From a virus, in IMG/VR virus record IMGVR_UViG_3300032294_000591, positions 1 through 31,886 of that record: 31,886 nucleotides of DNA; one strand, written 5' to 3'. This document shows positions 1,066 through 31,886 of this stretch, in pieces (the first letter of the stretch is position 1; every line of letters begins with the position of its first letter). Below the pieces are notes generated by a model. That model saw nothing but the letters and a program-made list of their open reading frames with translations, did not search any database and was not told the origin of the DNA. Made by a program: the position numbers and the translations under genes.

Positions 1066-1305
1066 ATGGCGATTATGAGTACAAACAACAATGTTCAAGA
1101 AGTTATCTGTAGACAATCTCAATTAAAATTCGTACTGGATTACACAAGTAATCTTGGACTAAAATTAACACTAAAAGATACAATAGCACTTACGGAAGTG
1201 ATGATTGACTATTGTCAAAATGGCTGGAACGCCGAATTGAAGAAGAGGATTGCGGCGTGTGATGAATTTGTTCAGTCTCAACTTAAAGAGTTGATGATTG
1301 ACTAA
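1066..1305 (+). CDS. Small helical protein, unknown function (rightward)
   Basis: The 79-aa protein (71-76 aa if translation starts at the second ATG, 1075, which gives MSTNNNVQEV) is probably all alpha-helical, with the segment LGLKLTLKDTIALTEVMIDY followed by a charged helix. It has three cysteines, no membrane segment and no catalytic motif that I recognise. It is the first gene on the plus strand and opposes all the structural genes, the position typical of early or regulatory phage genes. The start at 1066 is favoured because its leader resembles that of the nuclease gene (AAACTTA...AAAATGGCG). A hairpin terminator follows about 20 bases after the stop. Confidence 0.75.
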   Translation: MAIMSTNNNVQEVICRQSQLKFVLDYTSNLGLKLTLKDTIALTEVMIDYCQNGWNAELKKRIAACDEFVQSQLKELMID

Positions 1306-1323
1306 CCCAACAACAGTTTATCT

Positions 1324-1357
1324 TGAGGGTTAGTGTGGTGATACTACCCTCATTTTA
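1324..1357 (+). terminator. Hairpin terminator after the 79-aa gene
   Basis: TGAGGG (1324-1329) pairs with CCCTCA (1347-1352); after a one-base bulge TAGT pairs with ACTA, and the stem is followed by TTTTAAAC. The stem is moderately stable and the U run is short, so termination may be partial, with read-through to the 45-aa gene. Confidence 0.5.
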
Positions 1358-1386: not shown

Positions 1387-1464
1387 TGCTACCGGCTGGT
1401 TGTTACTCCTATTTGATAACGCCATTTTTTATAAGTTTTGTTCAACCGCTGGTAGCACCTTTTT
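1387..1464 (+). promoter_or_regulatory. Large bulged hairpin with 40-nt loop and trailing U run (H2)
   Basis: The left arm (1387-1402, TGCTACCGGC then GGTTG) pairs with the right arm (1443-1457, CAACCGCTGGTAGCA): about 15 pairs with a single bulged T (1397) and one G-U. CCTTTTT follows. The 40-base loop contains ATAAGTTTT (1431-1439), perfectly complementary to AAAACTTAT (1526-1534) located 5 bases before the ATG of the 45-aa gene. The loop also carries the 20-mer shared with the nuclease start. It looks like a cis-regulatory RNA or attenuator. Confidence 0.6.
1420..1439 (-). repeat. Second copy of the 20-bp nuclease-leader repeat
   Basis: The sequence is identical to 98-117 (and 31861-31880). 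On the minus strand it would start a tiny reading frame, MALSNRSNNQPVAMSL, ending in a stop about 50 bases on. This frame is too short to call a gene. The copy lies in the loop of hairpin H2. Confidence 0.85.
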
Positions 1465-1465
1465 C

Positions 1466-1516
1466 TATCAATAATGGTTCGGCGCTGAGTTTCTACTCTG
1501 GCGCCCCTTATTGATA
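1466..1516 (+). promoter_or_regulatory. Second stable hairpin upstream of the 45-aa gene (H3)
   Basis: TATCAATAA (1466-1474) pairs with TTATTGATA (1508-1516). Inside, GG pairs with CC, GGCGC (1481-1485) with GCGCC (1501-1505), and GAGT with ACTC around a TTCT tetraloop, about 20 pairs in all. It ends 22 bases before the start codon of the 45-aa gene. It is GC-richer than its surroundings, which argues for selection on RNA structure. Confidence 0.6.
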
Positions 1517-1538
1517 ATCACACTTAAAACTTATTGTT

Positions 1539-1676
1539 ATGTCAAAGACAACAGATTGGTATTTAGAATTAGAAGAAAACGGTATGCTTTCACTTTATAT
1601 TTCAACAACTATGTTTCATAATGAAGATGTAGAAGAGGTTGAAAGTGAAGAAGTTAAAATAGAAGAAATTAGTTAG
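1539..1676 (+). CDS. Small acidic protein, 45 aa (rightward)
   Basis: The frame from the ATG at 1539 encodes 45 residues (MSKTTDWYLE... ending EEVKIEEIS) with a strongly acidic C-terminal half and no cysteine, membrane segment or known motif. It ends at a TAG 41 bases before a strong terminator. The leader AAAACTTATTGTT resembles other starts in this genome and is complementary to the loop of hairpin H2, so translation may be controlled by RNA folding. Acidic mini-proteins of this kind in phages are sometimes DNA mimics or host-takeover factors, but nothing here proves that. Confidence 0.6.
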   Translation: MSKTTDWYLELEENGMLSLYISTTMFHNEDVEEVESEEVKIEEIS

Positions 1677-31338: not shown

Positions 31339-31866
31339 TTATTTAACAGATTTTTTTATTCTGTATTGAATATAATTTGCTGAATTAATCCATTCAAGGT
31401 ATAACTCCATAAACAATGGTACGTTGATAACCATACCCAAACACTTTGGATTGTATTCAACACTGCTATCCTTTAAATTGAATTTCTTCTTACCGTGTAA
31501 ATCCTGTAACTTTTTCCTATTGATGTAAAGGTATTTAAGGAATACTAACGGAACAACAACAACCATTTCGTGACAAGTTAAAACATAGTTGGTAGCTTCT
31601 GATACCAATAGTCCTGAATTAAAATATTCACCATAATCATTTATTGTTTTATCCCATTTTGCTAACCTGTATTCAAGATAAAAATTACCTGTATTCTTTG
31701 CCATATTTTGACACTTAACCTCAATGGTTGAACACAGAAATTCATCAAGTATAATCAGTGATGGTTGTTCATTGGAATATGCTTCCTCAATGTTTATTCT
31801 GCAATCAGTTTGAGATAAATCAAAGTCAAACTTTGCATCATTGTTTTGTTTGTAATACTTCGCCAT
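31339..31866 (-). CDS. PD-(D/E)XK-like phage nuclease, putative
   Basis: The 175-aa protein has a core SLIILDEFLCSTIEVKCQNM: an Asp/Glu strand followed by the E-V-K of a PD-(D/E)XK active site, then MAKNTGNFYLEYR and GLLVSEATNYVLTC, a pattern I know from small phage and restriction-like nucleases of this fold. A long Leu/Lys C-terminal half follows. It may process recombination or replication intermediates, or degrade host DNA. It is the second gene of the leftward unit, 17 bases after the 159-aa gene across the circle junction, and it ends before a strong terminator. Confidence 0.55.
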   Translation of the reverse strand: MAKYYKQNNDAKFDFDLSQTDCRINIEEAYSNEQPSLIILDEFLCSTIEVKCQNMAKNTGNFYLEYRLAKWDKTINDYGEYFNSGLLVSEATNYVLTCHEMVVVVPLVFLKYLYINRKKLQDLHGKKKFNLKDSSVEYNPKCLGMVINVPLFMELYLEWINSANYIQYRIKKSVK

Positions 31867-31886
31867 TTTTTATAAGTTTTATTTTA
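31764..31886. repeat. Terminal direct repeat, right copy
   Basis: Identical to bases 1-123 and contains the 5' end of the nuclease gene. It closes the genome into a circle of about 31,763 bp. Confidence 0.95.

Follow-up and report, generated by a model that had tools for sequence, protein, structure and literature searches.

The locus examined here raises the question of whether two stable hairpins, lying close to two small viral genes, act on the gene that follows them or belong to an RNA in its own right. The window, meaning the whole stretch of DNA that was analysed, is the complete IMG/VR record IMGVR_UViG_3300032294_000591 (31,886 bases). Positions 1-123 and 31764-31886 constitute an exact 123-base terminal repeat and, the ends being identical, the genome is probably complete and either circular or terminally repeated. 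A Bacteroidota host is suggested by the terminase, whose closest match is that of Flavobacterium phage 11b (47% identity). The minus strand carries nearly all of the genes; among those on the plus strand are the 79-aa and 45-aa genes, which flank the hairpin denoted H2.

Hairpins around the 45-aa gene and the proposed cis switch

The plus-strand features of this region are as follows.

1066-1305, plus strand: 79-aa gene, function unknown, which is usually the gene upstream of the RNA, with homologs in 50 IMG/VR loci
1323-1353, plus strand: H1, the hairpin after the 79-aa gene (GAGGG...CCCTC), kept in relatives as a terminator with a GGTGT loop
1366-1381, plus strand: AT-rich promoter-like stretch TATATATACTTATAAA, weak in the window; relatives have TATATTTAT at this place
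1387-1457, plus strand: H2, body of the putative small RNA, with an outer helix pairing 1387-1396 and 1448-1457
1420-1439, plus strand: 20-nt loop segment that is a perfect antisense match to the region where the 175-aa gene starts
1421-1426, plus strand: GCCATT, the conserved unpaired core of the loop, antisense to AATGGC; conserved in the family and within the best match of the held-out model R1
1460-1464, plus strand: T-run after H2, the tail of an intrinsic terminator, read from the window and also present in family members
1466-1516, plus strand: H3, a hairpin with a GAGTTTCTACTC apex, kept in the relative L005 and outside the wider family
1539-1676, plus strand: 45-aa gene, the target proposed in the first-pass annotation, 51% identical in L005

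The outer pairs of H2 have a predicted probability above 0.99, and the 191-nt region folds at -51.7 kcal/mol (z -4.7), a value equalled by none of 200 shuffles; H2 folded alone yields a z of -4.3. Both hairpins fold as the first-pass annotation had described, and they are stable beyond chance, far more so than shuffled sequence. The CCTTTTT in which H2 was said to end is also present, with the GC-rich stem running directly into the T-run as in an intrinsic terminator.

The same annotation had interpreted the locus as a cis-acting switch, in which the loop of H2 would pair with the leader of the 45-aa gene, enclose H3 and block that gene. The 9-nt complementarity behind this proposal is real, ATAAGTTTT (1431-1439) being the exact reverse complement of AAAACTTAT (1526-1534). 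Alone it is not strong, since this particular 9-mer recurs in the AT-rich genome: 1.3 occurrences were expected in the window and four were found, two of these being one terminal-repeat site. The nearest relative, L005, was obtained through a search of IMG/VR with the 175-aa protein (74% identical) and shows the same gene order as the window, with the 79-aa gene, H1, H2, H3 and the 45-aa gene. Its H2 retains the stem and carries GCCATTTTTTAT in the loop and, despite the retention of H2, H3 and the 45-aa gene, both 9-mers are absent. The predicted duplex of loop and leader is weak (-7.6 kcal/mol in the window versus -3.0 in L005), and most family members have neither H3 nor the 45-aa gene near H2. 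The zero probability that ViennaRNA assigns to the loop-leader pairing was set aside, because the pairing forms a pseudoknot with H2 and the two are not scorable jointly. The absence of both partners from L005 leaves the cis switch unsupported, and we consider it barely credible. The 9-bp match proved to be a fragment of the 20-base match between the loop (1420-1439) and the start of the 175-aa gene. Of the small regulatory RNA originally suggested, the terminator-ended RNA stands in kind and the cis target on the 45-aa gene falls.

A reading of H3 as a mimic of a Cas12a repeat (TTTCTACT) was also rejected, because the GTAGA half is absent from the sequence, and it is further undercut by GTTTCTAC being the commonest terminator apex in these phages. 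GTTTCTAC forms the apical loops of terminator-like hairpins in L005, L193, L251, L264, L281 and L289; in the window it caps H3, which carries no T-run.

A recurrent hairpin downstream of the 79-aa gene

Relatives were gathered from IMG/VR by searching with the 79-aa protein, which yielded 13 and later 50 viral loci. An H2-like hairpin is present in most of the 50, usually 92-121 nt downstream of the 79-aa gene, and hairpins of the same design occur just downstream of that gene in about 30 different phages. A pattern search that combined box, loop and T-run and made no use of the protein found six further members, three of which again encode the 79-aa gene just upstream. Applied to 2.7 Mb of fetched DNA, a strict descriptor, whose members were filtered for an AT-rich box of the general TATATTTAT kind, returned 29 distinct members together with two repeats from alignment files. 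A third pattern scan produced known members only, and a scan with the pattern ATTGCTACCGGCTG gave L005 as the sole relative among the loci followed up. In L240 (694-906, plus strand) and L251 (1287-1493, minus strand) the small RNA follows another gene of about 70 aa, which is alike between the two and comparable in size to the 79-aa gene.

The members share an ordered design consisting of the AT-rich TATATTTAT box, a GC-rich stem of 8-14 bp, a loop of about 40 nt containing TATTC and a near-invariant GCCAT, and a T-run. In an alignment of 27 sequences, TATATTT, which is part of TATATTTAT, and GCCA are invariant. As a control for the choice of GCCAT, 485 5-mers were counted where centred in terminator hairpins within 600 nt downstream of the 79-aa gene; GCCAT ranked top, occurring in 26 of 37 dereplicated regions (mean 2.0), and TATTC, in 20 of the 37, was among the highest of the 5-mers that do not overlap it. 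Eleven regions gave no strict match, and of these L265, L267, L269, L281 and L301 still show a copy by eye, with a short stem, cut by the contig end or located further away. GCCAA replaces GCCAT in L292. Downstream of the 79-aa homologs of L304 and L305 there is a hairpin that lacks GCCAT, TATTCAT being retained in L304, and these may be divergent members.

The stems vary strongly in sequence, with 26 different outer arms among the 29 members, and pairing is kept while the sequence changes. In a subset of closely related members, pairing holds in 94.6% of stem cells and two pairs have changed on both sides; all slid controls score lower. As the stems were found by demanding pairing, the diversity of the arms is suggestive, and counting the stems that covary is in part circular. 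The stems stay unaligned when the whole family is aligned with MAFFT, and the family model therefore describes sequence only, with no structural covariance; when built with the window and L005 excluded, this model (R1) found H2 as its best match in the window, at a modest E of 0.01. The GCCAU is unpaired in most predicted folds of the loop. A minus-strand peptide starting from the ATGGC in the loop was considered and discarded, as its open frame is not conserved among members.

In 27 relatives the box precedes the stem by about 5 nt; it resembles the Bacteroidota -7 promoter element, TAnnTTTG (PMC7366714). It is degenerate in the window and L005, such that transcription there could also start from the promoter of the 79-aa gene. 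TATATTTAT is also enriched throughout the window (8 copies versus 1.7 expected), as a phage-wide element, with copies at 959, 5190, 13615, 24268, 25897, 28257, 30874 and 31219. Several of these are followed by an ATG within about 6 nt, which suggests leaderless or near-leaderless transcripts.

That H2 is simply a transcription terminator with a large loop would account for the GC-rich stem and the T-run. We consider this quite improbable, given that the 79-aa gene is already followed by a separate terminator hairpin, H1, and that neither a 40-nt loop with an invariant GCCAT nor a dedicated upstream box would be expected to persist in a bare terminator. Very probably, H2 is a terminator-ended, non-coding small RNA whose loop is suited to covering a translation start. 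The apex of H1, GGTGT, itself recurs (e.g. GGTGTGGTGTACC) in L008, L010, L142, L193, L198, L220 and L286, as a second conserved element beside the small RNA.

Searches of Rfam 15 revealed no family above the gathering threshold for the whole window and five relatives, and no match up to an E of 5 for positions 1300-1560. Nor is the element described in the titles and abstracts listed for open papers on phage or Bacteroidetes structured RNAs. With a recurring hairpin design and no match in Rfam, H2 has the appearance of a separate small RNA that ends in a terminator and belongs to an unlisted family; the family itself looks like a previously undescribed one, of about 70 nt, in viruses of Bacteroidota-type bacteria.

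Upstream of the 79-aa gene, L005 and L012 encode a replication-initiation-like protein on the other strand, which places the small RNA near a replication module. The window has a 465-nt gap at 601-1065, with DnaA-box-like sequences TTATCCACA near 713 and TTATCCACC near 843; in L005 the replication-initiation-like gene, absent from the window, occupies the matching place.

Translation starts as possible targets of the loop

The longer complementarity involves two further features.

31339-31866, minus strand: 175-aa gene, the proposed target (phrog_13596, function unknown), with homologs in 6 of 34 relatives
98-117, identical to 31861-31880 in the terminal repeat, minus strand: proposed pairing site AAAACTTATAAAAAATGGCG, reaching from the leader of the 175-aa gene through its ATG to its second codon

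The loop segment 1420-1439 is an exact 20-nt copy of 98-117/31861-31880, for which 0.02 occurrences would be expected even with up to 3 mismatches allowed; in 100 randomised genomes, antisense runs of the loop reached at most 14. The predicted duplex with the 175-aa start (-29.7 kcal/mol) is by far the best among all gene starts scanned in the genome and has a z of about -5.9 relative to the loops of other phages. Long complementarity to a start encoded elsewhere is characteristic of trans-encoded antisense RNAs and, in this phage, it extends over 20 exact nucleotides. A match of 20 nt, as against 9 nt for the 45-aa leader, points to the 175-aa gene, and the RNA would then act in trans.

The conserved architecture of the RNA, its conserved position and the 20-nt complementarity are direct observations. 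The best explanation, in which we place about as much trust as doubt, is that H2 is a trans-acting antisense RNA that blocks translation starts, its target in this phage being the 175-aa mRNA. A discrete plus-strand RNA of about 75 nt would be transcribed from the AT-rich stretch just upstream, or from the promoter of the 79-aa gene, and would be ended by its own terminator. The stem would clamp a large single-stranded loop, directed as antisense against starts in which an A-rich leader precedes AUGGC; AAUGGC, to which GCCAUU is complementary, is a frequent start context in these phages. A 20-base duplex between the loop and the 175-aa mRNA, spanning its leader and start codon, would then stop ribosome initiation. 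Transcription, intracellular pairing and repression are what we infer from these features, as is any biological role, such as the timing of early and late genes.

Judging from the sequences compared, the target is clear in this phage only and is not shared by relatives. The L005 loop shows partial complementarity to its own 175-aa start (-15.1, rank 2 of 30 loops), and in the five other phages with a 175-aa homolog the loops have no complementarity of note to its start. The 175-aa gene therefore fails as a common target of the family outside the window and L005, and no ortholog ranks high across phages as a single common mRNA target. The 175-aa family itself has invariant residues E49, K51, N61 and E65 (E-x-K ... 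N-x3-E), reminiscent of PD-(D/E)XK nucleases; an AF2 model of the protein was of low confidence (62), gave no usable fold match and did not confirm this likeness.

Another candidate target is the neighbouring 79-aa gene. It probably encodes 76 aa from the second ATG (1075), a start preferred because the first ATG is out of frame in L005. An AF2 model of a family member shows three helices (pLDDT 87) and no fold match in the PDB, and its confident matches in BFVD are uncharacterised phage proteins only; a search of 84,980 bacterial and archaeal species genomes gave no homolog, and neither did the cultured phage collection. The RNA could mainly control this upstream mRNA through its AUGGC start, creating a local feedback loop. 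Own loops pair better with their own 79-aa start than do swapped loops after dereplication (p about 0.006 for duplex energy and 0.047 for ungapped matches). In addition, among 19 phages with ATGGCA or ATGGCG starts, the base beside GCCAU follows the Ala codon at its third position in 18, relatedness not being removed from this count; it is C in both ATGGCG phages (the window and L303) and U in 16 of the 17 ATGGCA phages. The effect is, however, small and sensitive to relatedness, and the preference over other ATGGC genes is slight (p 0.04). Moreover, several phages have ATGTC at the start of the 79-aa gene and GCCAT is conserved there too, which suggests a role beyond the 79-aa mRNA. Overall, a weak signal in relatives points towards the 79-aa mRNA start, and local feedback is a tentative possibility.

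The main rival to the antisense reading is a protein-binding role, in which H2 would be a structured RNA whose UAUUC and GCCAU bind a protein, perhaps the 79-aa product, or a host RNA, with the 20-nt match secondary or accidental. It would fit the conservation of both motifs while the flanking loop bases vary, the tight linkage of the RNA to the 79-aa gene and the lack of an mRNA target common to the phages. The exact antisense match at a start codon lies far beyond chance, however, and L240 and L251 carry the RNA after a different small gene; that the 79-aa model has no known PDB fold also counts against it, if weakly. We consider this role rather less probable than the antisense reading.

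Translation initiation in Bacteroidota-type hosts relies little on Shine-Dalgarno sequences. A broader form of antisense action, which we rate as fairly improbable, is that the RNA family is widespread and its invariant GCCAU acts against start codons in general, masking the AUGGC starts of numerous phage and host mRNAs that depend weakly on Shine-Dalgarno sequences, in which case translation initiation would be redirected during infection.

Relation to known RNAs and significance

If H2 acts as an antisense RNA on the 175-aa start, it would work most like the engineered paired-termini antisense RNAs (PTasRNAs; Nakashima 2006, as described in PMC3694883), which are directed against the translation start and stabilised by being held between inverted repeats. 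Unlike these man-made molecules, H2 comes from a natural family whose loop core is conserved, and it uses a terminator as its clamp. In phage P4, processing of a primary transcript yields CI RNA, an immunity antisense RNA that pairs with seqA and seqC and thereby terminates transcription prematurely (PMC4825925). RNAs of this type pair with leader sites in their own operon and cut short the transcription of replication genes. H2 resembles CI RNA as a small phage RNA with proposed base pairing on phage transcripts and differs, on a comparison by description, in that the hairpin supplies its own terminator and its loop is antisense to start codons. Membership of the PTasRNA or P4 CI class is not claimed. 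A further likeness, again by description, is to GibS, a trans-acting host sRNA of Bacteroides (PMC7366714): both are stand-alone intergenic RNAs with seed regions and the host groups are related, although GibS is relatively unfolded and H2 is a phage hairpin.

With these results, a large group of uncultured Bacteroidota-type phages gains a recurring RNA gene that is so far unlisted and, for one of the phages, a concrete candidate pairing of 20 bp over a start codon. If the antisense action is true, the RNA would be a natural counterpart of the engineered paired-termini antisense RNAs, and would represent a rare case of phage-encoded RNA control in hosts with little Shine-Dalgarno dependence.
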